Positions 52,722-64,000 of a DNA stretch of 64,000 nucleotides are shown piece by piece. Both the position numbers and the translations under genes were made by a program. The number at the start of each line of letters is the position of its first letter. Positions within the stretch are counted from its first letter, which is position 1. The DNA lies in NCBI RefSeq assembly GCF_900091475.1, contig NZ_FMIB01000002.1, positions 4,588,001 to 4,652,000 of the forward strand, in the 5' to 3' direction. The notes beneath the pieces were generated by a model, which was not told the origin of the DNA, ran no database searches, and was given only the letters and a program-made list of their open reading frames with translations. Origin of the DNA: Micromonospora chersina (lineage in GTDB: Bacteria > Actinomycetota > Actinomycetes > Mycobacteriales > Micromonosporaceae).

Positions 52722-53423
52722 TCAGTCGGCCAGCATGGCCAGCAGCAGCCCGGCCGTGGTCAACACCGCCGGGACCAGGCAGACCAGCGCGCCGAAGCGG
52801 GGCGTCCGGTCCACCCGGTCGGCCGGGCGGGGCCGGAACAGCCGCCCCACCGCGAGCCAGCCCAGCATGAACGCGACCGCCGGCAACGGCAGCCCGACCA
52901 CCAGCGCGACAACGGTCAGCGGGCCGGTGCCGGTGGCGAGGAACAGCACGAGCTGGACCAGCGGCACCAGCAGCGCCAGCGGACCGTAGACCAGCAGGTT
53001 GCGCGGGTGCGCCGGCCAGCGGGCCAGCCGGGGCAGGCCGCGCGCCGCGAGACTGTCGTCCGCCGAGTCCGCCCAGCCCCGGGCGGACCGCAGGGCGGCC
53101 AGCACGGCCGCCGGACCGGCCGCCATCGGTCGGGCCGCCTCGGTCACCTCGGGGGGCGTCGGGACCAGCGAGATCGCGGGTACGCCCAGCTCACGCAGCC
53201 GCGACTGCTGCGGGGCGAGCCGCTCACGGACCGCCGTCAGCTCCTCCCGGGCCGCCGCCACCGACCGGGCCTGCTCGCTCGCGGCGGTCGCCGCCGCCCG
53301 GCGTACGCCGTCGAGCTGGCGCGCGGCGGCCACGTAGTCCGCCCAGGCCGCCCCGGCCGCGTCCACATCCACCGTCGGGCCGCCGGACCGGGGCGCGGGG
53401 ACGGCCGTGCCGGTCTCACTCAT
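52722..53423 (-). CDS. Coiled-coil and multi-helix membrane protein paired with FtsK-like ATPase
   Basis: A 233-residue protein: a short polar N-terminus, a helical segment of Ala/Arg/Glu heptads (about 35-85, AAREELTAVRERLAP) that should form a coiled coil, then three to four membrane helices (about 140-230). No known family. GGGGAGGAGCC precedes the ATG, a strong site that fixes the start. It lies 42 bp after the FtsK-like gene on the same strand; the pair is probably one unit, with this protein anchoring the ATPase. Function unknown. Confidence 0.7.
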   Translation of the reverse strand: MSETGTAVPAPRSGGPTVDVDAAGAAWADYVAAARQLDGVRRAAATAASEQARSVAAAREELTAVRERLAPQQSRLRELGVPAISLVPTPPEVTEAARPMAAGPAAVLAALRSARGWADSADDSLAARGLPRLARWPAHPRNLLVYGPLALLVPLVQLVLFLATGTGPLTVVALVVGLPLPAVAFMLGWLAVGRLFRPRPADRVDRTPRFGALVCLVPAVLTTAGLLLAMLAD

Positions 53424-53465
53424 GGCTCCTCCCCGTTGGCATTCGTGGCGGCCCACTCCGCGCGC

Positions 53466-55982
53466 TCACGGTGTCACCCCCTCGCCGAAGGGGACCAGCA
53501 CCGTGCCCTGCTCGCCCGGGCCGTCCCAGAGCACCGCACGGCCCGGCCGGGGACGCCAGAGCACCGGCCGGTCGAACAGCTGCTCCAGCCGGCCACCGGG
53601 CACGTCGGTGACCGCCACGGCGGTGAGCTTGTCCACCTCGCCCTCCGGACCGAGCAGCCCGGCCAGCGGCGCCACCGTGCGCCACCAGCCGAGCAGGTGC
53701 CGGCCGGCGGGCGGCCCCTCCAACAGCAGCGCGCGCAGCAACTCGGGCGGCAGCTCGGTCGCGTCCGGCACGTCCAGCCCGAACACCACGAGGTAGCCCG
53801 GCTCGTCCGCCGCCATGGCCGCCCGCAAGCCGATCACGTCGACCGTCTCCACCCGGTGCCGCCCGGCCAGCTCGGCGGCGAGCACGCCGGCCGGCTCGGC
53901 CGAGCCGTTGGCCAGCGGCGCCAGCACGAACCGCGCCGCGCCCGGGTGCGCCGCCGCCGCGCTGCGGACCGCGGTGACCAGCAGCCGCTCCGCCTCGTCG
54001 TCCCGGCCCAGCACGGCCAGGTTGCGGCCGGCGGCCGGCCCGAGCGGCACGGCCACCGTGGAGCGCCGGACGTCCACCGCCCGGCCGAGCAGCGCGGCCG
54101 GCGCGTGCGCCCGACCGGCCAACGCGGCCCGGTGCCGCGGGTCGTTGGCGAGCAGCGGGCGGGCGAACCCGGCGAAGACCACCGGCGGGGCGGCACCCTC
54201 GGGCCGGGCAGACCAGAGCCGGTGCCGCAGGTCGGCGAGGACCTCGGGGTTCTCGTGCGGGTCGGGGAAACGGATCATCCGCTCGTGGCCCCGGGTCGCG
54301 CCGCGCGGGCCGCCCAGCCCGCCGGCGGTGTTCACCACCGCGCTGCCCACCGGCAGGCCGGCCGCCGAGTCGTTTGTCGGCTCCAGCACGGCCGAACCCC
54401 CGGGCAGCGCCACCCGGACCGGGAACTGGCCGAGCAGCGGGTCCCGCGGGCCGCCGATGCCGAGGTCGCCCTCGCCGGCCAGGACCAGGTGGATCCCGTA
54501 CGACCGGGCGGCGCGGGCCAGCGCGTCCAGCCGGGCCAGCAGGTCGGTGGCGAGCCGGTCCCGCTCGCGCAGCAGCAGCGGGAAGTTGTCGATCACGCAG
54601 ACGATCCGGGGCAGCGACTGGTGCTGGCGCAGCTCGGCGTAGCGCTGCCCGCCGGCTCGCCGGGCCGCCTCCTCGCGGCGGCGCAGCTCCGCCTCCAGCT
54701 CGCCGAACAGGTCCGCCACGTACTCCCGGTCGGCGGCCATCCCGGCGGCCCGGACCTGCGGCACCCAGGACCGGTCCCGCTCGGTCTGGAGGAACTCCAC
54801 GAAGGACTCGCCGTCGTCGAGGTCGGCCAGGTAGAGGATCAGCTCGTCGGGGCCGTAGCGGGCGGCCAGGCCGAAGAGCGCGTCGGTGAGGAACGCCGAC
54901 CGGCCGGCCTGCGACCGGCCGCTCACCAGCCAGTGCGGGGTCAGCTCGGTGAAGCCCAGGCTGACCGGCCGCCCGGCGGCGTCACCGACAGTCGTGACGA
55001 GCCCGTCGACCGAACCCTCCGCCCACAGCTCGCCGTCGGGCAGCAGGTCGGTGAGGGCGAGGCGGGAGCCGTCCTCGATCTGCCGGACCAGCCGCCGGCA
55101 CACCCCGGCCACCAGCTCCTCGGGCGGGTCCTCGTCCAGGAAGACCGGGCAGTTCAACCCGCCCGGCGGCTCCGCCCCGGGACCGCTGAAGCCGGCGGCG
55201 GGCGGATCCCCGACCAGCGCGTACGCGGTGCGCACCGCGAGCGGCGTGGCCTGCGGCAGCGGCACCGAGTCGGGCCAGCCGGCCACCACCAGGTGCAGCC
55301 CGGCCCGGGGACCCTGCGCCGCCAGCTCGGCGAGCCGGTCGAGATCGGACGGTGCGGCCCCGTCCGGCAGGGCGGCCACCACCAGCAGCAGAGTGCGGTC
55401 GTGCCCGCGCTGACGGGCCGTGCCGGCGGCCACCCACTGCTCGGCCTCGGCAAGCACCGCCCGGAAGCCGGTCAGGTCGGTGGCGGGAGGCGGCAGCAGG
55501 CCCGCGTCGGCCAGCGGCGCGTAACCAGCCAGCGTGGCGACCAGGCCCCCGTCGACCGCGCGGGCCAGCAGGGCGCCGGCCGGGCTGGCCGCGAACAGCC
55601 GCAGCAGAAGGGCCCGGAGCAGCCCGGCCACCCGCGGGTCGCCGGCGTCGGCGTCGACGCTCAGATGTCCGCTGCCCAGCAGCGGCACGAGCGCGGGGAA
55701 CCGGGCGTCGTCCAGCGGCGCGGCGGTGCCGACCCGGACGAAGGAGGGCGGGCCGTCCCCGGGCGGGCTCGTCGGGGTCAACGTCTCCAGCGGGTCACCG
55801 GCCCAACCGGGGGCGGCGAGCGCCGCCGCGGCACGGAGCCGCTCGGCCAGCTCGTACTGCCGGTGGTGATCGGCGGGCGCGGGCCGGATCTCGTCGAGGA
55901 TCGCGGCCGCCGCGGTCGCGGTGGCCTCGGCCCTGCGGTGCAGCGCGGCGGCCCGGCCGGCGCGCGCCTTCGGACTCGCCAC
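53466..55982 (-). CDS. FtsK/SpoIIIE-like ATPase with degenerate P-loop
   Basis: An 838-residue protein with an N-terminal helical region (about 1-60), a long non-catalytic part, an FtsK/SpoIIIE-like domain and a C-terminal second lobe. The P-loop is GRSQAGRSAF near residue 357, with Arg for the invariant Lys, and Walker B is IVCVIDNFPLLL near 460. No membrane helices are predicted. The domain resembles the second ATPase of EccC (GTTRSGRST) rather than chromosomal FtsK, so it may be a structural or docking ATPase. GAGAGGTGGACGG lies before the GTG at 55982. Next to it is a T4SS-like operon. Role unknown. Confidence 0.75.
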   Translation of the reverse strand: MASPKARAGRAAALHRRAEATATAAAAILDEIRPAPADHHRQYELAERLRAAAALAAPGWAGDPLETLTPTSPPGDGPPSFVRVGTAAPLDDARFPALVPLLGSGHLSVDADAGDPRVAGLLRALLLRLFAASPAGALLARAVDGGLVATLAGYAPLADAGLLPPPATDLTGFRAVLAEAEQWVAAGTARQRGHDRTLLLVVAALPDGAAPSDLDRLAELAAQGPRAGLHLVVAGWPDSVPLPQATPLAVRTAYALVGDPPAAGFSGPGAEPPGGLNCPVFLDEDPPEELVAGVCRRLVRQIEDGSRLALTDLLPDGELWAEGSVDGLVTTVGDAAGRPVSLGFTELTPHWLVSGRSQAGRSAFLTDALFGLAARYGPDELILYLADLDDGESFVEFLQTERDRSWVPQVRAAGMAADREYVADLFGELEAELRRREEAARRAGGQRYAELRQHQSLPRIVCVIDNFPLLLRERDRLATDLLARLDALARAARSYGIHLVLAGEGDLGIGGPRDPLLGQFPVRVALPGGSAVLEPTNDSAAGLPVGSAVVNTAGGLGGPRGATRGHERMIRFPDPHENPEVLADLRHRLWSARPEGAAPPVVFAGFARPLLANDPRHRAALAGRAHAPAALLGRAVDVRRSTVAVPLGPAAGRNLAVLGRDDEAERLLVTAVRSAAAAHPGAARFVLAPLANGSAEPAGVLAAELAGRHRVETVDVIGLRAAMAADEPGYLVVFGLDVPDATELPPELLRALLLEGPPAGRHLLGWWRTVAPLAGLLGPEGEVDKLTAVAVTDVPGGRLEQLFDRPVLWRPRPGRAVLWDGPGEQGTVLVPFGEGVTP

Positions 55983-56225
55983 CCGTCCACCTCTCTTCCC
56001 GAGGCCGACATCTCCTCCCCGATGGTGACGGTATCCCAGCCGGGGGCCGTCCTCCGGGATGTCGGTCGGCGCGGTGCCCGGCTCCGCGGTGAGCAGCCTC
56101 ACCCGCCCGGAGGCTCCGGCGGTTCGCCACGGCCTTCATTCGGACGGAGTGCCGCCCGGCGGCGTGGAGGCCGAATTATGGCCGCTTCTGAGGCATTGGG
56201 TACGCGCCGCGCAGCCGATAGCCTC

Positions 56226-56231
56226 AGGAGG
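56226..56231 (+). promoter_or_regulatory. Ribosome binding site fixing the start of the 56240 gene
   Basis: AGGAGG lies eight bases before GTG at 56240. An in-frame GTG at 56231 overlaps the site and cannot be the start. The 257-bp divergent region from 55983 holds no other recognised element. Confidence 0.8.
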
Positions 56232-56239
56232 TGGAATCA

Positions 56240-56791
56240 GTGCAGCCCCCCGCCGGTTCCCAGGTCTCCCGGGTACCGGCGCAGCGGACCCCGCCCGAGC
56301 AGTTGGCGCCGCCCGCGCCCGCTCCGGCGCCGGCACGCCCGAAGCGGCGGCTGCGCACCGTTCTCGCCGTGGTCGCCGGGGTGATGGCGCTGCTCTGCGC
56401 CGGCGGAGCGGTCGTCGGCTTCGTGTTGTACGACCGGGCAACTGCTCCCGACCGCAGCGCCCCGGACGTGGTGGTGGTCAACTATCTCCAGGCTGTGCTG
56501 GTTACCCGCGACGACAACAAAGCAGCCCTGTTCACCTGCGATGGCTCGGTGCCGACGATGGACGATTACCGGGATCAGATCGTCAGCCGGGAACAGGAGT
56601 TGAAGGTCGCCTTTTCGATCAACATCGAGAACGTCGTAGCGCCGAAGCCCGACTCGTCGAACGCCGTCGTCACCGCCGTAATCAGGAGAAGCGCGATCGT
56701 GGACGGTGTGCAGCAGAGCCTTACTGATCCCTGGCGCTTCGAGCTGAAGGATCAAAATGGTTGGCGGGTCTGTTCTGCGCAGCAGATGTGA
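56240..56791 (+). CDS. Proline-rich single-pass protein with extracytoplasmic NTF2-like domain
   Basis: A 183-residue protein of the same design as the gene at 971-1558: Pro/Ala-rich N-terminus (about 1-35), a KRRLR stop, one helix (about 39-62) and an exterior domain with VVVVNYLQAVLVTRDD, TCDG and a final WRVCSAQQM. From about 56480 on, third-position GC drops well below that of neighbouring genes, a sign of acquisition. It is convergent with the T4SS-like operon (4 bp between stops). Function unknown; a subunit or immunity-like partner of that operon is possible. Confidence 0.65.
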   Translation: MQPPAGSQVSRVPAQRTPPEQLAPPAPAPAPARPKRRLRTVLAVVAGVMALLCAGGAVVGFVLYDRATAPDRSAPDVVVVNYLQAVLVTRDDNKAALFTCDGSVPTMDDYRDQIVSREQELKVAFSINIENVVAPKPDSSNAVVTAVIRRSAIVDGVQQSLTDPWRFELKDQNGWRVCSAQQM

Positions 56792-56795
56792 CGCC

Positions 56796-57395
56796 TTACT
56801 CCAGCCACAGCAGGTGTACCGGAACCTCGAGCGTGGTCGGGGCTTGGCCGCGCCAGGCCCAGCGGTACCACTCCAGTTCCGGGGCCACCCGGACGCAGAT
56901 GTCCCCGTCCGCGCCGGAGTAGGCCTCGGTGACCGCGCGGAGGTCGCGCTGCTCGGTCGCCCCGCTCACGTGCACCACCCGGCGACCCGTGACCGAGTCG
57001 GCCTCGAAGACCGGGGTGGGCGGGCGCCGGGTGGGCGCGTCGAGCGAGACCAGCCGGATGCCCGGCTCGGGCGGACCGGTGCCCGGTCGCCGCTCACCCA
57101 CGGTCTCCACCCAGACCCGCTCCACCGGCACCAGCGGCGCGAAGACCTCCACCTGCTCGGACTCGGCGCGGTACCACTCGTGCTCCGGGATCACCGGCAC
57201 GTAGGTCCGGCTGCCCTGCACGACCCGCTCGTCGGCGCGCAGGTCACCGCGCCACCCGAGGCCGGGCAGGCCGACCAGCACGCGGCGGCCACGCAGGTCG
57301 ATCCGCCCGGTGGCGGGGACGATGTCGACGGGGCGCGGCGGCAGCGGCGCCCAGTCGGGCCGGTCCGCGAAGGGGTCGGGCAGCGGGTTGTTCAT
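56796..57395 (-). CDS. Hypothetical protein, last gene of the T4SS-like operon
   Basis: A 199-residue soluble protein rich in Pro, Arg and Val, with beta-strand-like stretches (YVPVIPEHEWYRAE, RRVVHVSGATEQRD, LEWYRWAWRGQ). Two similar EWYR motifs suggest an internal repeat. No signal peptide or helix. I do not recognise it. It begins 13 bp after the wall hydrolase gene and is the last gene of the operon, so it may be a regulatory or assembly factor. Confidence 0.6.
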   Translation of the reverse strand: MNNPLPDPFADRPDWAPLPPRPVDIVPATGRIDLRGRRVLVGLPGLGWRGDLRADERVVQGSRTYVPVIPEHEWYRAESEQVEVFAPLVPVERVWVETVGERRPGTGPPEPGIRLVSLDAPTRRPPTPVFEADSVTGRRVVHVSGATEQRDLRAVTEAYSGADGDICVRVAPELEWYRWAWRGQAPTTLEVPVHLLWLE

Positions 57396-57408
57396 GTGCC
57401 GGTGCGCC

Positions 57409-58584
57409 TCACGCGGTCCCGTCCACCGGAGCGCCCCGCTCGCGCATGAACGGCACCGGGTTGATCGCGCCGCGGCTGGACCGGTCGCTGTCGACGTGCA
57501 CCTCGAAGTGCAGGTGCGGGCCGGAGGAGTTGCCGCTCGTGCCGGAGAGGCCGATCAGGTCGCCCGCCTCCACGGACTGGCCCGGCACCACCCGGGGGCG
57601 CTCGATCATGTGGCAGTAGCGGGTGATGTAGCCGCCGGCGTGCAGGATGTCGACGAACCATCCGCAGCCGCCCTTGCCCGGCCAGCCGTCCCGGTCGCAG
57701 TCGCGCTTCCCGGAGCGGTCGGGGTCGCAGCGGGCCACCAGTACCCGGCCCGCCGAGGCGGCGTGGATCTCGGTGCGCTTGTCCGCGGCGAGGTCAACCC
57801 CGTTGTGGCTGGGCCGCTCCGTGGTGCGGAAGCCGGAGACCACGCCGCCGGGCAGCGGGGCGGTCCAGCCGGACGCGGCGATCCTTGCCCCGGCGGCGGC
57901 GTCGCAGACCGCCTTCCCGGCGATCTCGACGGTGCGGGCCGCTCCACCGGCGAGCGCGTCCACAATCCGGCCGGCCAGGTCCTCGTGCTTGGCGTAGGCG
58001 TCCGGGAAGGCGCTGACCTGCACCCGCTGGGCCACCACCGTGAGCGGCCGGTGCTGCCAGTCCCGCACCCGGACCATCTTCTCGTAGAACTTCCGGGCCG
58101 TGTAGGAGGGCGTCATCCGCTGTTCGACGCTGCCCCACCCCGGTCGCTGCTGGAACAGGCCCAGCGAGTCGTGGTCGGCGCCGACGCCCTCGTGTGGCAG
58201 GGCCAGGGACGCCGGCACCGTGCTGTTGGCGAGGTTGCGCAGAGCGGACTCCTGCATCGCGGTGGCCAGCGCGATCACCCAGCCGCGGGCCGGTACCTTC
58301 ATGTCCTGGCCGACCTTGATGATGACCGCGGCGTTGCGGAGCTGGCCCTCGCCGTACTCGGTGAAGCGCGGCATCTCTCCGGTCAGGTTGACCTGGTAGG
58401 CCGGGTCGCAATTCAGGCCGGCGAGCACGCCGTCCTTCTGGTCGCCGCCGAGTTCGGTGAGGAGGAACGCGCCCGCCCCACCGACGCAGCAGAGCAGGGT
58501 GAGCACCGTGGTGACGGCGGTGACCAGCACGCCGACCCGCAGCTTGCGGCGGACCGGCGCCGTGACGCCGGGCGCCGTGCTCAC
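57409..58584 (-). CDS. Membrane-anchored wall hydrolase: transglycosylase-like + M23 endopeptidase
   Basis: A 391-residue protein with one N-terminal helix (about 18-42), an SLT-like domain (about 75-175: ALATAMQESALRN with the catalytic Glu, SLGLFQQRPGWG) and a C-terminal LytM/M23 domain (HNGVDLAA near 260, HLHFEVH near 356, with all zinc ligands). Two glycan/peptide-cutting activities in one chain would open peptidoglycan for a channel; VirB1 and TcpG/Tgl play this part in conjugation. GTG at 58584 overlaps the previous stop. Domain calls are firm, the T4SS role is inferred. Confidence 0.88.
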   Translation of the reverse strand: MSTAPGVTAPVRRKLRVGVLVTAVTTVLTLLCCVGGAGAFLLTELGGDQKDGVLAGLNCDPAYQVNLTGEMPRFTEYGEGQLRNAAVIIKVGQDMKVPARGWVIALATAMQESALRNLANSTVPASLALPHEGVGADHDSLGLFQQRPGWGSVEQRMTPSYTARKFYEKMVRVRDWQHRPLTVVAQRVQVSAFPDAYAKHEDLAGRIVDALAGGAARTVEIAGKAVCDAAAGARIAASGWTAPLPGGVVSGFRTTERPSHNGVDLAADKRTEIHAASAGRVLVARCDPDRSGKRDCDRDGWPGKGGCGWFVDILHAGGYITRYCHMIERPRVVPGQSVEAGDLIGLSGTSGNSSGPHLHFEVHVDSDRSSRGAINPVPFMRERGAPVDGTA

Positions 58585-59141
58585 TGCCGCTCCCAGTCGA
58601 CCGCGTCCACCAGCCACCGGCCGTCCGGGGCCACCAGTTCGAGCCGGAGCCGGCCGTTGTCGAGCGGGACCAGCGCCTCCACGAAGGACTCGGTCCGCGG
58701 GCGGAGGGTCACCGCGCCGGCCGTCCGGCGGGCGGGCACGCTCTCCGGGTCGGCGCCGGTCATCTTCTCGACGAGCGCGGGCGTGGAGAGCGGTCGCAGC
58801 CGGGCCTGCCAGGCGTCGCCGCTGCTGCCGGGACCGGTGAGCCAGGCCGTGGTGAACCGGCTCGCGGTCTGCTCGGGCGTGGCCTCGCCCGCCCGGGTCT
58901 TCGGGGAGACCGCCGCCGGCGGGCTCGACAGCACGCCGTCGTCGCCGGCGTGCGGGTCGACGGTGCTGATCGGCTGGGTCGGCCGGGTGCTGAGGCCGGT
59001 GGTCGGGTCGACCGGACCGGAGACCAGCCGGGCCGCGCCGATCACGCCGAAGACCAGCACGGCGATCACGAGCGCGATGCCGAGCCGGGACCGCAGTACC
59101 CGCGTGAGCAGGAATTCCAGCGCCCGCCGCACCGGTGTCAC
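58581..59141 (-). CDS. VirB8/TcpC-like bitopic channel protein
   Basis: A 186-residue protein with a short cytosolic N-terminus, one helix (about 18-40), a Pro/Ser/Thr linker, and an exterior domain (about 90-186) with TASRFTTAWL, VPARRTAGAVTL, a central pair of strands and DGRWLVDAVDWERQ. This size and topology fit the VirB8/TcpC channel subunit, an NTF2-like fold; the sequence match is too weak to prove it. It overlaps both neighbours by 4 bp (GTGA). Confidence 0.65.
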   Translation of the reverse strand: MTPVRRALEFLLTRVLRSRLGIALVIAVLVFGVIGAARLVSGPVDPTTGLSTRPTQPISTVDPHAGDDGVLSSPPAAVSPKTRAGEATPEQTASRFTTAWLTGPGSSGDAWQARLRPLSTPALVEKMTGADPESVPARRTAGAVTLRPRTESFVEALVPLDNGRLRLELVAPDGRWLVDAVDWERQ

Positions 59142-61072
59142 CGCGCCTCGGAGCGGACCCGCGGCGCCGGCTTGGGCGCCGGGGCGCGGTCGGCCGAGTC
59201 CGGCCGGTAGACGGCGAAGGAGGGTGCCTCCTCGGGCACGTCGGGCCCGGTCCAACCCGCCGGCTGGCGGCGGGGCCGGGGCGCGGCACCGCGGCGCTCG
59301 GACACGGGCTCGGTCGCCGGCGCCTGCTCGGGGCGCTCCCGCCCGTCCGGCCGCTCCCGCTCGACCGCCGTGACGGTGTGCGCCGGGTCCTCGTGCCGGG
59401 CCTCGGGCCGGAGGCTGCGCTGGTCGGCCGTCACACCGCGCCGCCGCCCCATCGCGGGCTCGGCCGTGCCGCCCGGCTCGGCCACGTCGAGGCGGGCCGC
59501 GACGCGCATGTCGCGGAAGAACCGCCGGTGCCAGGAGCCGGCCGAGCTGACCGCCTCGCTGCTGTCCTTCCCGCCGAGCTGGGTGATCCGCCGGTACGGG
59601 CGGAGCAGCAGCCAGCCCACCACGCCGCAGAGCCAGACCAGGACCACCTGGAGCCAGCCGGGCAGGGTGGGCGTATTCATGATCAGATCCACCGCGAACA
59701 GGTAGATGGCCGCGCCGGTGCCGAAGATGGCGATGTTGAAAACGGCGGCGACCACGGCGTTCGCGAGCCGCCGGAGGCCGGCGCTGGCCGGGCGCATCAA
59801 CCCCACTGTGCCCAGGATCGGCGCGGCGATCACCGCCCAGCGGAAGATCAGGAAGCCGAGCAGCACCAGCAGCGAGGCGGTCAGGTCGAACATCGCGAAG
59901 AGCAGCGAGGCCAGCACCGCGATGAAGCCCGCGCCGATCCGGTCCATGTCCCGGACGCCCTGGAGGTACTCGTACGCCTCCGGGTCCTCCGACCTGATTT
60001 GTTCGGCGACCTTCATCCATTGCTGCTGCTTGGCCTTGATGACCGCATCGCGGGTCGCCGGGTTGGCCCGGATCGACTGTGCTTCTCCCCAGGTCAGCGA
60101 CTTGGCGTCGTAGAGCGCCGGACCGTACTTCTTGGCGGTCTCGCTGTCGGCGGAGCCGAGCACACCTCGCAGCCAGTTCCGGTAGAGCATCGTCTCGGCC
60201 GCAGTGTCGCTAGCGCGAACGGCGGGAGGACGCAGGTCCTTGCATCGGTCCGGATTCTCGCCGATGCAACGCCCGGGCCCCGGATCCTTCTTCTGCGGCC
60301 CGACGGCATCGTGGACCACGCTAAGGGTGGTGATCAGGGTGTTGTCGGCGATGTTTGCCGACTTCACCGGCCAAGCGGCCAGGGCGGTCACCGCCACCAT
60401 GACCAGGATCGCCCAGCCAGCTGTGGTCATGGCGTTGCTCATGTCCGACTGGCGGGACCGCCAGAGCAGGTAGAGGCCGACCACGCAGATCGTGATGATG
60501 CCGAAGACGCTGAACACCTTCTGGTAGACGGCCTTGGTGGCCTGCTCCACCAGCGGGTCCGCCCAGCCCCACATCGTCCGGGGATCCCAGGCGCGCTCGC
60601 GCAGTGCGTTCGATGCCCCGATCACGGCAGTGGCGAACATGAATTCACCGTTGGCAACGGTGGTGGTGAACTTGTAGTCGGGATGTAGGACAGTAGACGC
60701 GCAGCCACCGTCCACGTCATAGGTGGTGTAGTTGTAACCGGCGTATCCGTAGAGGCTGTATCGGCCGGTGACGCCACCGGCAGTTTCCGGGGGAGCGCTC
60801 GCGAACCAGCCGGCTAGGCCAGAGTCGGGTGCACTCGGCGTGGGTGCCTCGAGGCATTCCGCTCGTGCCGAAGAGACCTCTTTGAGCTTGGCCACGCACG
60901 CCCGGAAGTCGGCCTGCCACTCCTTGGTGCTGCACAGCTCGGCCCGGGCCTGGGCGGCCGGTACGGCGGCGTACGCGGGTGTCGCCCCGACCAGCGGCCA
61001 GCCGATGGTGGCCCCGGCCAGTACGCCGAGCGCGAGGAGGAGCGCCGCGATCCGTGCCCGGGCCCTCGCCAT
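59138..61072 (-). CDS. Polytopic VirB6/TrbL-like inner membrane protein
   Basis: A 644-residue protein. A signal peptide (about 1-37, ending ATPAYA) leads to an exterior region with many cysteines, then seven or more helices between about 190 and 490, and a charged, disordered, Arg/Pro-rich C-terminal tail of about 140 residues. This resembles the VirB6/TrbL family, which forms the channel platform with VirB4. The part encoded at about 59980-60920 has noticeably lower third-position GC than the C-terminal part. The ATG at 61072 follows the VirB4 stop by one base (TGACATG). Confidence 0.75.
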   Translation of the reverse strand: MARARARIAALLLALGVLAGATIGWPLVGATPAYAAVPAAQARAELCSTKEWQADFRACVAKLKEVSSARAECLEAPTPSAPDSGLAGWFASAPPETAGGVTGRYSLYGYAGYNYTTYDVDGGCASTVLHPDYKFTTTVANGEFMFATAVIGASNALRERAWDPRTMWGWADPLVEQATKAVYQKVFSVFGIITICVVGLYLLWRSRQSDMSNAMTTAGWAILVMVAVTALAAWPVKSANIADNTLITTLSVVHDAVGPQKKDPGPGRCIGENPDRCKDLRPPAVRASDTAAETMLYRNWLRGVLGSADSETAKKYGPALYDAKSLTWGEAQSIRANPATRDAVIKAKQQQWMKVAEQIRSEDPEAYEYLQGVRDMDRIGAGFIAVLASLLFAMFDLTASLLVLLGFLIFRWAVIAAPILGTVGLMRPASAGLRRLANAVVAAVFNIAIFGTGAAIYLFAVDLIMNTPTLPGWLQVVLVWLCGVVGWLLLRPYRRITQLGGKDSSEAVSSAGSWHRRFFRDMRVAARLDVAEPGGTAEPAMGRRRGVTADQRSLRPEARHEDPAHTVTAVERERPDGRERPEQAPATEPVSERRGAAPRPRRQPAGWTGPDVPEEAPSFAVYRPDSADRAPAPKPAPRVRSEAR

Positions 61073-61073
61073 G

Positions 61074-64000
61074 TCACGCCTCCAGATCAGCCAGGACGGT
61101 CGGCAGCTGCCCGGCGGCCTGGGCGACCGCGGCGGGGGTGGTGTCCAGGTGCTCCAGCAGCCCGTCGACGTACGACACGTCGACCCGGACCTTCTGCACC
61201 CGTCCGTCGACGTCACGCATGACGAACTCGCGGAAGCCGAGCCGGGCGGCCGAGCCGCTGTCGGCCTGGGACAGCGAGGCGAGGGTGGCCTCGTAGCCGT
61301 CGTTGACCGGCACCCGGAGCAGCCGCAGCGCCTCGGACGCGATCTCGGTGTCCTCGGCGATCCGGCCGACGAAGACGGTGGAGACCAGGTTCTGCACGTC
61401 GAGGCCGAGGATGTCCTTCGGGTTCTGCGAGGCGACAAGCGCGGCCAGGTTCCACTTGCGGGAGTCGCGGGCGAGGCGGACCAGGAACGACCGGCCGGAC
61501 CGCCAGCCCTCCATGAAGTGCGCCTCGTCCAGGCCGACGAGCTTCCGCGAGGACATCGAGCCGCCGTAGCAGCGGCGGACGGCCAGCCGGTGCGCGGTGT
61601 GCAGCATCGGCAGGGCCAGCGCCTCCTCGGCGGACCAGTACTCGCGCTCGATCTTGAGATCGGGTAGCCGGAGCCCGGCCATGGTGATCACGGTGAGCGC
61701 GGCGTCGGCACCGAGCAGCCCCTCCGGCGGTCGGCCGAAGAAGAGCATCGCCAGCGGCATCTCGGCCGTGTCGAGGAGCAGGTTGGCCAGCTCCCGGCCG
61801 GCGTCGTCGTCCAGCCCCTGAAGGCAGGCGACCACGTCGTCCAGGGTGGAGGTCTCCTCGGCCGGCACCTGGCGTACGGCGTGCCGGAACAGGGTGGCCG
61901 TGGACGCCTCCCGGGCCACCTGCGGCGGCACCAGCATCATGCAGATGTCCTGCACCAGCATCCGGCGTTCGGCGCGGGCGTTGGAGACCGCGATCTCGAA
62001 CTCCCGGTCGCCGGCCGCCCCGGCGCCGAACTCGGTGCGCAGCGGCGTGGGGATGAGCGCGTACGGGGCCAGGGTGCCCTGCTCCGAGCCGGTCAGGTTC
62101 AGCACCCGCGAGTACGGGGCCAGCTCGGGCATGGCGCAGAGCCGGGCCAGCGGGCCGGACGGGTCGAGCAGGGTCACCTGCACGCCCCTCCGGGCGGCCA
62201 GGTAGCCCAGCGCGCCGAGCAGGGTGGACTTGCCGCCGCCCGGCTCGGCGACGAAGACGGCGAGGCCGGAGCGTTCGCGGACCTCCATGGGGAAGTGCAG
62301 GTCGAGGAAGACCGGGCGGCGGCAGGTGCCGGCGGTACGGCCGATCAGGTCGCCGCGCCGGTCGCCGACGGTGGACGCCGCCTGGGGCAGCGCCGCGGCG
62401 AGCAGGTTGACCGGCATCCGCCGGACGTAGCCGGTGTTGGCGATCGGCTCGCCGGGGATGAACTCGCGGGCCAGCCAGTCCTGGTTCTTCGGGTGCTGGA
62501 GCGAGATGCGTAGCTCGCGCGAGTAGAGCTGGATGAGCCGGCGGGCGCGTTCCAGGCACTCCTCGCGGGTGCGGCCGCCGACCGCGATCCGGTGCCAGCC
62601 GTGCGCGCGGGCCGAGTCCACCGGCAGGCCGGTGGTCATCTCGTCGCCGATCACCAGTGCCCGCTTGGCCAGTCGCTCCAGCTCCGGCGGGGCGTCGATG
62701 CCGTGCTCGGCGTAGTCGAGCTGCTGGGAGCGGATCATCCGGAGCCGGTGTTCGAGGTTCCGGAAGGAGTCGCCGGGACCGAGGATGTCGACCCGGGTGG
62801 AGAGCTCCATGGGCCACGGCAGCCGCTCGTGGAAGTGCAGCCACGGTTCGTGCCGCTCGGGGATCTCCAGCGGCTCCATCCGGCCGACCGCCAGCACGGC
62901 CACGTGCCGCTCCTCGCCGGTCATCCGGTTGACCAGCTTGACCGTGGAGCCGTAGGGCGTGCGGTAGCGCTCGACCTGCTCGGTGAGGGCGAGAAGGTCG
63001 CCGCGTTCCCACCGGCCGTTGGTGATGGGGGAGAGCACGCCCGGCGGCGCCATGCAGAGCGCCACCGAGCGGTAGAGCAGCCACTCCAGCTCCTGCGCGG
63101 TGACCCGGCGGCCCCGCATGCCGAACGCGCCGAGCACCTCGTCGAACTGCTCGACGGTGCGGCCGAGCCGGCGCCGCTCGCCGTCCGCGGTGCCCCGGCC
63201 GAAGGTGCGCAGCAGCCGTTCGGTGAGCGAGTCGCCGAGGGACCGGCGGGCGAAGGTGACGCCCAGGTAGGTCTGCCCCTCGGCGTGGTTGACCGCCATG
63301 AGGTGCCGCTGCGCGGCGACGAGGTGGTCGGCCCAGCCGGTGGTGCCGGGCACGTCGGGCAGCGGGGCGGCGGTGTGCGCGTCGATGGTGCGGGCCCACT
63401 CGTCGGCCGGGAACGGCCGGGTGGTGCGGCGCAGGTGCAGCCGGAAGCCGGCCAGGCCGGCGTACTGCTCGGAGATCGCGGAGAGCAGCGCCTCGCGCTC
63501 GGCGTCGGGGCGGAACGCCCAGCGCACCTCGGGCAGCCAGTACCAGGCCGTCACCGTGTTGGGGGTGAAGGTGAGGTGACCGGCGATCTCGGTGATGGCC
63601 AGTTCGACCGAGGGGTCCCGGTCGCCGAACTTGATCTTCGGGGCACGGACCCGGACCGGCTTCGCCGGCTTGCCGCCGCGCTCCGGGGACCGCTGCCGGG
63701 GCGGGGCCACCTCCCGGCCGGACGGGGTGGCCAGCTCGCGCGCCTCGGGCCGGGGCTCCGCCGTCCGCCGGTCGCGCCGGCGGGCGGGGCGCTCGACCGC
63801 GGCCTCCGGCTCGGCCGGCTCCGGTTCGACGGTGGACCGCAGCGCCGGGAGCCGGTCGCCGACCTGGTGCGGCACCCGGGTACGGGCGGTCGGCGCCGGT
63901 TCGAGGGCGGGCTGCTCCGGCGCTTCGGGGATGGCGTGCGCCGCCGGGCGTGCGGCCTGGACCGCCTCGCGGGGCCGGCCCACGGGGCGGACGCCGGGCG
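61074..64000 (-). CDS. VirB4/TraC-type secretion ATPase (N-terminus beyond window)
   Basis: At least 969 residues are visible and the frame stays open at the right edge, so the start may lie outside; GTG at 63983 is a candidate. A disordered basic N-terminus is followed by a VirB4-like N-domain, then the ATPase with Walker A FVAEPGGGKSTLLGAL near visible residue 584 and Walker B LVGLDEAHFME near 817, then ASQNPKDIL of the motor. VirB4 ATPases drive type IV secretion. It heads a five-gene operon of a possible T4SS; no relaxase, VirD4/TcpA coupling ATPase or integrase is in the window. Confidence 0.88.
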   Translation of the reverse strand, partial: PGVRPVGRPREAVQAARPAAHAIPEAPEQPALEPAPTARTRVPHQVGDRLPALRSTVEPEPAEPEAAVERPARRRDRRTAEPRPEARELATPSGREVAPPRQRSPERGGKPAKPVRVRAPKIKFGDRDPSVELAITEIAGHLTFTPNTVTAWYWLPEVRWAFRPDAEREALLSAISEQYAGLAGFRLHLRRTTRPFPADEWARTIDAHTAAPLPDVPGTTGWADHLVAAQRHLMAVNHAEGQTYLGVTFARRSLGDSLTERLLRTFGRGTADGERRRLGRTVEQFDEVLGAFGMRGRRVTAQELEWLLYRSVALCMAPPGVLSPITNGRWERGDLLALTEQVERYRTPYGSTVKLVNRMTGEERHVAVLAVGRMEPLEIPERHEPWLHFHERLPWPMELSTRVDILGPGDSFRNLEHRLRMIRSQQLDYAEHGIDAPPELERLAKRALVIGDEMTTGLPVDSARAHGWHRIAVGGRTREECLERARRLIQLYSRELRISLQHPKNQDWLAREFIPGEPIANTGYVRRMPVNLLAAALPQAASTVGDRRGDLIGRTAGTCRRPVFLDLHFPMEVRERSGLAVFVAEPGGGKSTLLGALGYLAARRGVQVTLLDPSGPLARLCAMPELAPYSRVLNLTGSEQGTLAPYALIPTPLRTEFGAGAAGDREFEIAVSNARAERRMLVQDICMMLVPPQVAREASTATLFRHAVRQVPAEETSTLDDVVACLQGLDDDAGRELANLLLDTAEMPLAMLFFGRPPEGLLGADAALTVITMAGLRLPDLKIEREYWSAEEALALPMLHTAHRLAVRRCYGGSMSSRKLVGLDEAHFMEGWRSGRSFLVRLARDSRKWNLAALVASQNPKDILGLDVQNLVSTVFVGRIAEDTEIASEALRLLRVPVNDGYEATLASLSQADSGSAARLGFREFVMRDVDGRVQKVRVDVSYVDGLLEHLDTTPAAVAQAAGQLPTVLADLEA

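Follow-up and report, generated by a model that had tools for sequence, protein, structure and literature searches.

According to the part of a 2025 review available to us, it is surprising that nearly all known functions of Gram-positive type IV secretion systems (T4SSs) consist only in one-way DNA translocation, and dedicated Gram-positive effector translocators are a long-standing question (PMC12857230). The T4SSs devoid of VirD4 that are discussed in section 20 of that review are Gram-negative; the functions of such systems are protein export, perhaps the making of pili, and DNA uptake (PMC12857230). In Streptomyces coelicolor, the chromosomal cmdABCDEF genes (SCO4126-4131), which include a VirB4-like gene and are conserved in several Streptomyces, have been connected with development. 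In the part of the 2009 paper accessible to us, mutants without cmdB or without the entire cluster are reported to be delayed in aerial growth and impaired in sporulation and in chromosome segregation, with the cmdA single mutant as an exception, plasmid transfer is unchanged in cmd null mutants (authors' data not shown), and the way in which these genes affect sporulation is left open (PMC2782261). Here, an operon of Micromonospora chersina is compared with these systems. It occupies the end of a stretch of 64,000 nucleotides, called the window (positions 4,588,001 to 4,652,000 of contig NZ_FMIB01000002.1), and continues beyond it; the contig from which the window comes measures 6.67 Mb and is one of two in this Micromonospora genome. 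Comparison with related loci shows a T4SS-like gene set that is under purifying selection and keeps its site in the closest relatives; in the block of genes studied, no relaxase, integrase, VirD4 or TcpA is recognised. The locus does not look like an evident integrative element; it looks like a T4SS core that has become fixed in chromosomes and for which no coupling protein was identified. We consider it rather probable that the operon encodes the trans-envelope core of a conjugation machine of Gram-positive type, now a fixed part of the chromosome that serves the cell itself in a non-conjugative function.

The operon is on the minus strand, starting at about position 65416 (past the window end, in continued window numbering) and ending at 56796. 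Its genes code, in this order, for a VirB2-like protein, a VirB3-like protein, VirB4, a VirB6-like protein, VirB8, a muramidase-M23 hydrolase and a 199-aa protein, and their spacing suggests that the seven genes form a single transcript. The upstream side is bordered by folP-folK and the other side by folE-ftsH (all confirmed by Pfam), and the interval between the operon and folE holds three further genes: an Rv0361-family gene on the opposite strand, an EccC/FtsK-like gene, and a gene for a 244-aa protein. The block studied comprises the ten genes that separate folE from folP. The sequence-only reading of the window had recognised a T4SS-like operon on one strand. This operon is real: the assignments of VirB4, VirB8 and hydrolase are supported, and the sequence beyond 64000 adds VirB2-like and VirB3-like genes, followed by folP, with no VirD4/TcpA, Esx- or relaxase-like gene in the block.

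The first gene of the operon (65102-65416, beyond the window) encodes the VirB2-like protein of 104 aa, whose plasmid counterpart is recognised by profile comparison with a probability of 94.2. The VirB3-like protein (64726-65088, also beyond the window) has 120 aa and two hydrophobic segments, and the plasmid protein in the same slot is matched at a probability of 98.5. Since it matches none of the curated VirB3/PrgI families of Pfam and NCBIfam, the VirB3 name is based on size and position. VirB4 (61074 to 64000, continuing to 64676 beyond the window; 1200 aa) is a predicted ATPase with intact Walker motifs, Walker A (EPGGGKST) and the DE pair being invariant in nine aligned rows; its core, residues 330-1200, is 100% identical to a protein recorded for M. 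chersina. It matches Pfam AAA_10 (8.7e-24) and, partially and under the family cut-off, the NCBIfam TcpF profile (1.6e-20); sequence searches of the PDB gave one weak match, with the plasmid alignment (4ag5, 3.2e-5), and otherwise no credible relative. The next gene (59138 to 61072) codes for a polytopic membrane protein of 644 aa with a Pro-rich C-terminal tail. Its assignment as VirB6-like is drawn from plasmid homology (25-33% identity to plasmid proteins in the best 10 records of 81), topology and position; the match to NF046089 is weak, and the PDB contains no relative detectable by sequence.

The sequence-only reading had proposed a VirB8/TcpC-like protein at 58581 to 59141, and the structure model of this bitopic protein (186 aa, with an NTF2-like domain at about residues 82-186) indeed matches TraM, TcpC and PrgL, the proteins of pIP501 Tra, pCW3 Tcp and pCF10 Prg. 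Because NTF2 folds from outside T4SSs score only slightly below those of T4SSs, the position of the gene adds weight to the predicted VirB8-like identity. The wall hydrolase (57409 to 58584, 391 aa) is composed of an N-terminal hydrophobic segment, a muramidase-like domain (residues 81-207) and an M23 endopeptidase (residues 259-367), and would play the VirB1 role. This prediction is based on matches to Peptidase_M23 (6.6e-23) and PDB 8b2e (2.1e-23) and on the N-terminal part, which is common to plasmid hydrolases (profile probability 100); a match to Pfam Mobilization_B is sub-threshold (E=0.035). The last gene (56796 to 57395) encodes the 199-aa accessory protein, which belongs to no Pfam family and may contain two tandem SH3-like/Tudor-like barrels, a low-confidence fold suggested by topology, an internal repeat and low-Z matches (Foldseek best E 0.05). 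All fold searches were made against solved structures. PADLOC matches are confined to the P-loop parts of VirB4 and of the EccC-like protein, PHROGs gave no significant match, and viral contigs contained no relative.

The operon is at a constant chromosomal place in its closest relatives. One genome per species was scanned, producing 261 VirB4 relatives, of which the best 80, all Micromonosporaceae by name, were kept. The genes for VirB4, the VirB6-like protein, VirB8, the hydrolase and the 199-aa protein are present in 80/80 loci, and those for the VirB2-like and VirB3-like proteins, folP and folK in 66/80. In twelve of the 14 loci without the VirB3-like gene, the locus or contig ends within VirB4, so that the folP side is kept in 66 of the 68 loci with upstream sequence. 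On the other side, the EccC-like gene is found in 78/80 loci, the 244-aa gene in 69/80 and folE in 61/80; the 11 loci without the 244-aa gene, and 14 of the 19 without folE, end at most 445 bases past the last gene found, and the folE side is kept in 61 of the 66 loci with enough downstream sequence. All 12 tested genes, including both folate flanks, are present in 54/80 loci, and across the 80 closest loci every tested gene that was found keeps its order and strand. The two loci that differ upstream (L014 and L071, both drafts) and five that differ downstream (L047, L070, L077, L083 and L084) could reflect misassembly or real rearrangement. Within the genus, the TcpF profile found matches in 31/31 genomes, all under the curated cut-off; these are profile matches and not confirmed folate-linked copies.

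Selection was measured as omega (dN/dS) against seven or eight close species. Values for the operon are 0.04 (VirB3-like), 0.14 (VirB2-like), 0.15 (199-aa protein), 0.15 (VirB4), 0.20 (VirB6-like), 0.21 (hydrolase) and 0.27 (VirB8), and those of the folate genes, taken as reference, 0.22 (folP), 0.20 (folK) and 0.07 (folE). The core genes (0.04-0.27) are thus under purifying selection comparable to that on folP. Among the neighbours, omega is 0.23 for the 244-aa gene, 0.27 for the EccC-like gene and 0.56 for the Rv0361-family gene.

Upstream of the first operon gene, TTGT followed 16 bases on by CCGTACnCT is invariant in 36/36 aligned rows. We read the pair as a promoter of sigma-70-like type in which a spacer of 17 bases separates TTGTCG from TACGCT. 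The region between this gene and folP (65417-65777, beyond the window) is a long leader conserved in Micromonospora, with hairpin-like stretches and no family-wide consensus structure. A structured leader RNA was considered because of this conservation and was dropped: Rfam gave nothing at gathering and two matches at chance level by E-value, and RNAalifold gave -4.4 kcal/mol over 36 rows (of 66 sequences), with two-sided changes in 3/14 pairs.

Protein families of the block were sought with Pfam in all ten genes and with NCBIfam in nine, the VirB2-like gene being outside the NCBIfam scan. Among the ten genes there is no relaxase family, the sub-threshold Mobilization_B match aside (the rest of the genome and oriT were not searched), no integrase family (attachment repeats were not searched), no competence family, and no EccB, EccD, EccE or WXG100 family, only the locus having been scanned. 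Nor is there a VirD4/TcpA family, the only related gene being the EccC/FtsK-like one with degenerate Walker motifs. The view that the locus lacks relaxase, coupling ATPase and integrase therefore stands for recognised families, amended by this degenerate P-loop gene next door, which is outside the range covered by the sequence-only reading; an adjacent integrase or relaxase, which would have pointed to a normal conjugative element, was not found in the block. No tRNA is present at 52001-81000.

Relatives of the operon are found on plasmids. A tblastn search with VirB4 found 297 plasmid records, none of which spans 80% of VirB4 in one place; in the best 30 records, from Streptomyces, Nonomuraea, Pseudonocardia, Rhodococcus and Prescottella, identity is 31-38%. 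Eight plasmids from four genera were opened, and their gene order (VirB2-VirB3-VirB4-VirB6-VirB8-hydrolase) matches that of the operon, the VirB6 slot of pLP414 being without an annotated gene. Protein searches with the plasmid VirB4s gave 456 hits, and the 120 listed include chromosome-sized contigs of Pseudonocardiaceae. Order-wide, the TcpF profile matched in 58/150 genomes. From 17 selected loci that were fetched, 14 carry the six-gene operon (ten Pseudonocardiaceae, L173, L174, L176 and the fol-linked L175) and L177-L179 do not. The Pseudonocardiaceae loci, positive in 10/10 cases, were drawn from 18 genomes of the family with a match; for their assignment, the VirB4 of L167 is identical over the last 900 residues to that of Prauserella isguenensis P0345. 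The six-gene core is thus carried by three further chromosomal lineages, L173, L174 and L176, of which L174 belongs to another genus of Micromonosporaceae.

The sites of the operon differ by lineage and are partly housekeeping. In Pseudonocardiaceae it is beside the RNase P RNA (both loci scanned), NIF3 and an RNB ribonuclease; in L173 the site is hisG and infC, in L176 a DUF3090 gene and a tRNA-synthetase-like gene, and in L174 the operon adjoins WXG100-like genes (sub-threshold Pfam matches). The proposal of a machine fixed in the chromosome holds in part: place and order are constant in the closest relatives (the best 80 of 261 loci), but L174 shows that the site is not family-wide. In the VirB4 tree, the fol-linked copies, with short branches, form one clade with L174 and L173 (support 100/100), the plasmids being outside it, and Pseudonocardiaceae form their own clade (100/100), which two plasmids join (92/90). 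Plasmid VirB4s have longer branches than the chromosomal copies, and since several of these are long and the tree is midpoint-rooted, it does not fix the direction or number of transfers between plasmids and chromosomes. Nine of the ten Pseudonocardiaceae loci (L163-L172) carry downstream a conserved protein of no known family (196 aa in L166, one of the nine), for which no relation to the 199-aa protein was detected. A phylum-wide search with a VirB4 alignment (5/396 genomes) was discarded as evidence of distribution: it scored just two candidates in each genome, at E 1e-20, and the operon turned up in further families of the order in other searches.

Among the neighbours of the operon, the Rv0361-family membrane protein (56231 to 56791, plus strand; NF051431, 2.1e-9, barely above the cut-off) has a conserved place, evolves fast and is probably outside the machine. 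The 244-aa protein (52722 to 53456, minus strand), whose gene adjoins the EccC-like gene, has a C-terminal hydrophobic part and sub-threshold family matches only. The EccC/FtsK-like protein (53466 to 56102, minus strand, 878 aa) matches FtsK_SpoIIIE (1.3e-12) and, under the cut-off, EccCa of NCBIfam (3.2e-15), and its alignment used as a profile matches PDB 4nh0 (2.6e-26; named FtsK/SpoIIIE), which we take to be EccC, and EccC5 (7.4e-19). The Walker lysine is present in 5/21 rows (Plantactinospora twice, Asanoa, Actinoplanes twice) and absent in 16/21, and the DE pair is present in 6/21 and absent in 15/21; the motifs are intact in the rows of these three genera and degenerate in those of Micromonospora and Salinispora. 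The protein has the appearance of an ATPase whose activity was lost in the rows of the latter two genera, and is a candidate for a substitute coupling factor or a bystander. One outlying Micromonospora row retains the DE pair.

This gene is central to two explanations that compete with a function of the cell's own. The operon could still move DNA between hyphae or cells, as double-stranded DNA and without relaxase, with the EccC/FtsK-like protein or another FtsK as motor; it would then be a chromosomal counterpart of the mating machine that linear plasmids are assumed to have. This explanation, which we consider unlikely, is favoured by the presence of the EccC/FtsK-like gene in the conserved block and by the plasmid relatives, since the eight linear plasmids with the same core are typed without mobility genes, so that the absence of a relaxase alone is no proof of lost conjugation. 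Moreover, mycobacterial linear plasmids with hybrids of T4SS and type VII secretion system (T7SS) and without relaxase have been argued to be conjugative in the part of the report available to us (PMC12803027). However, most rows of the FtsK-like protein have lost the Walker lysine and the DE pair, comparison with the plasmid FtsK gives a profile probability of 76 over 145 columns of the P-loop region, so that orthology is not evident, and neither its profile nor that of the plasmid FtsK finds a match in the 13 non-fol chromosomal loci that carry the operon (each of 17.5-20 kb; the plasmid-FtsK profile was used without a positive control).

The other explanation, an improbable one, is a T4SS/T7SS hybrid in which the EccC-like protein would feed folded or WXG100-type substrates into the VirB core. 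The matches to EccCa, 4nh0 and EccC5 speak for it, as do the WXG100-like genes that adjoin the T4SS of L174 and the joining of virB4 and virB8 with esx genes on mycobacterial plasmids, as stated in the accessible part of that report (PMC12803027). Against these stand the lack of EccB, EccD, EccE and WXG100 matches in the block, the loss of Walker motifs in most rows, and the same 13 loci without a match to the EccC-like profile. A DNA-uptake machine in which VirB4 alone would power import across the wall has a similar gene set in its favour, given that, in the part of the review available to us, Helicobacter pylori ComB has homologues of VirB2-4 and VirB6-10 and neither VirD4 nor VirB11 (PMC12857230). 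Nevertheless, no competence family is present in the block and the VirB4 relatives listed are plasmid-borne or of TcpF type, which makes such a role very improbable. Finally, an ordinary integrative conjugative element or its decaying remnant, suggested by VirB4 and VirB6 relatives on plasmids and by the different sites in different lineages, is hardly credible in view of the same site in the closest loci, the absence of integrase and relaxase families from the block and of tRNA from 52001-81000, and the purifying selection.

The reading that we prefer is a conjugation machine core kept by the cell for its own use. By analogy with known T4SSs, the VirB3-like protein and the VirB8 tails would keep a VirB4 hexamer at the membrane, where it would power a VirB6/VirB8 complex; the muramidase-M23 enzyme would open the wall, and VirB2-like subunits would line or extend the conduit. 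The machine could export proteins or peptides, or build a surface structure, in the mycelium. Because relaxase and coupling ATPase are missing and such roles have been proposed for VirD4-less systems elsewhere, the most likely job would be protein export powered by VirB4, or the formation of a hyphal surface structure, and possibly it has a role in growth or development, as the cmd operon has in Streptomyces.

Several observations weigh against this reading. No substrate gene is recognised, and a function of the cell's own is predicted from sequence comparison. The block includes the EccC/FtsK-like gene, whose Walker motifs are intact in some genera. In the same genome, a second VirB4-like gene (P-loop_TraG) is followed by a coupling-protein-like gene (TrwB_AAD_bind) at L134:14939-19263 (C2 ~2.395-2.399 Mb); this T4SS is possibly another mobile element, and its coupling-protein-like gene could act in trans for the folate-site operon. 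The 297 plasmid records were typed as 174 mobilizable, 112 non-mobilizable and 11 conjugative, and all eight opened plasmids are linear and typed as non-mobilizable or without mobility genes by MOB-suite. With regard to the site, the 80 loci are the best of 261, the remaining 181 being outside this view; the folP side is absent in 2/68 loci, five loci (L047, L070, L077, L083, L084) have no folE within 1.7-2.1 kb beyond the 244-aa gene, and the operon of L174 (genus g238, one genome), away from the folate site, argues against a fixed site for the whole family. As for the parallel with cmd, null mutations in SCO6878 or SCO6881, which belong to a related cluster, cause no such phenotype (authors' unpublished data, in the part of the paper accessible to us; PMC2782261), and a search for orthology found no gene-by-gene BLAST match at 1e-2 and profile probabilities of at most 7.0.

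A wider reading, to which we give slightly less than even weight, is that Actinobacteria have repeatedly made conjugation machines of linear-plasmid type into permanent organelles free of coupling protein, which would export proteins or form a surface structure as hyphae grow or develop. These would be common to Micromonosporaceae and Pseudonocardiaceae, with lineage-specific accessory proteins: apparently the tandem SH3-like protein in the former and the apparently unrelated 196-aa protein in the latter. Since a T4SS core is fixed among folate-synthesis genes without the usual DNA-nicking and coupling genes, the locus suggests a conjugation machine taken over by the cell for another job, and would provide a repeated natural experiment in the domestication of such machines. 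It is a Gram-positive case at one chromosomal place among close relatives, with DNA-processing and coupling genes absent from the locus, and such a conserved operon makes the question of effector translocators directly testable. The operon is of interest, too, for the question of how sporulation in Streptomyces depends on the cmd genes.

No description of this operon was found among the matches listed from the open-access literature searched. In the parts of the reports available to us, a virB4-like gene with neighbours of unknown function is mentioned in M. lupini (PMC4182475) and may belong to the same operon; one VirB4 homologue is noted as conserved in three Frankia strains, its role in export being doubted (PMC2266912). 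The cmd operon is likewise chromosomal, but the CmdB-like protein is short (about 470 aa, VirB4 having 1200 aa) and the gene order differs. The SCO6880-type parallel drawn by the sequence-only reading did not hold either: NF042935 (SCO6880/CmdC family) matches a protein of the cmd-like Streptomyces locus and none of the nine block genes scanned (the VirB2-like gene being outside the scan). The cmd-like loci compared were assigned by content and by PMC2782261 and not matched to the S. coelicolor sequence. The cmd genes thus appear to be a separate lineage, an analogy and not a shown orthologue. In a Streptomyces-like genome, a TcpF-like cluster located close to the end of a contig (L122) was also tried and rejected, the VirB4 pair giving a probability of 76.6 and the other pairs tried about 10 or less.

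Bordetella Ptl, Brucella VirB, Bartonella Trw and Helicobacter ComB likewise have, in the part of the review available to us, a VirB core without coupling protein (PMC12857230); these are Gram-negative systems with outer-membrane parts, and the likeness to the operon drawn here is one of gene set. The pCW3 Tcp, pIP501 Tra and pCF10 Prg systems, as stated in the same part of that review, have the VirB1/B3/B4/B6/B8 gene set (PMC12857230). The predicted gene set of the operon corresponds to it but, unlike in them, no VirD4/TcpA, relaxase or mobile context was found at its locus. The actinobacterial linear plasmids (Streptomyces pSM17C and pSSFR2, and those of Nonomuraea, Pseudonocardia and Rhodococcus opacus, the latter pLP414) have the same core gene order as the operon. 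They differ from it by the presence, in the stretches opened, of ParA in 5/8 and of an annotated FtsK/SpoIIIE or T4SS coupling gene in 6/8, and by a hydrolase annotated as C40/NlpC in 7/8, whereas the chromosomal operon has an M23 enzyme and, as a feature of its own, the SH3-like accessory gene.

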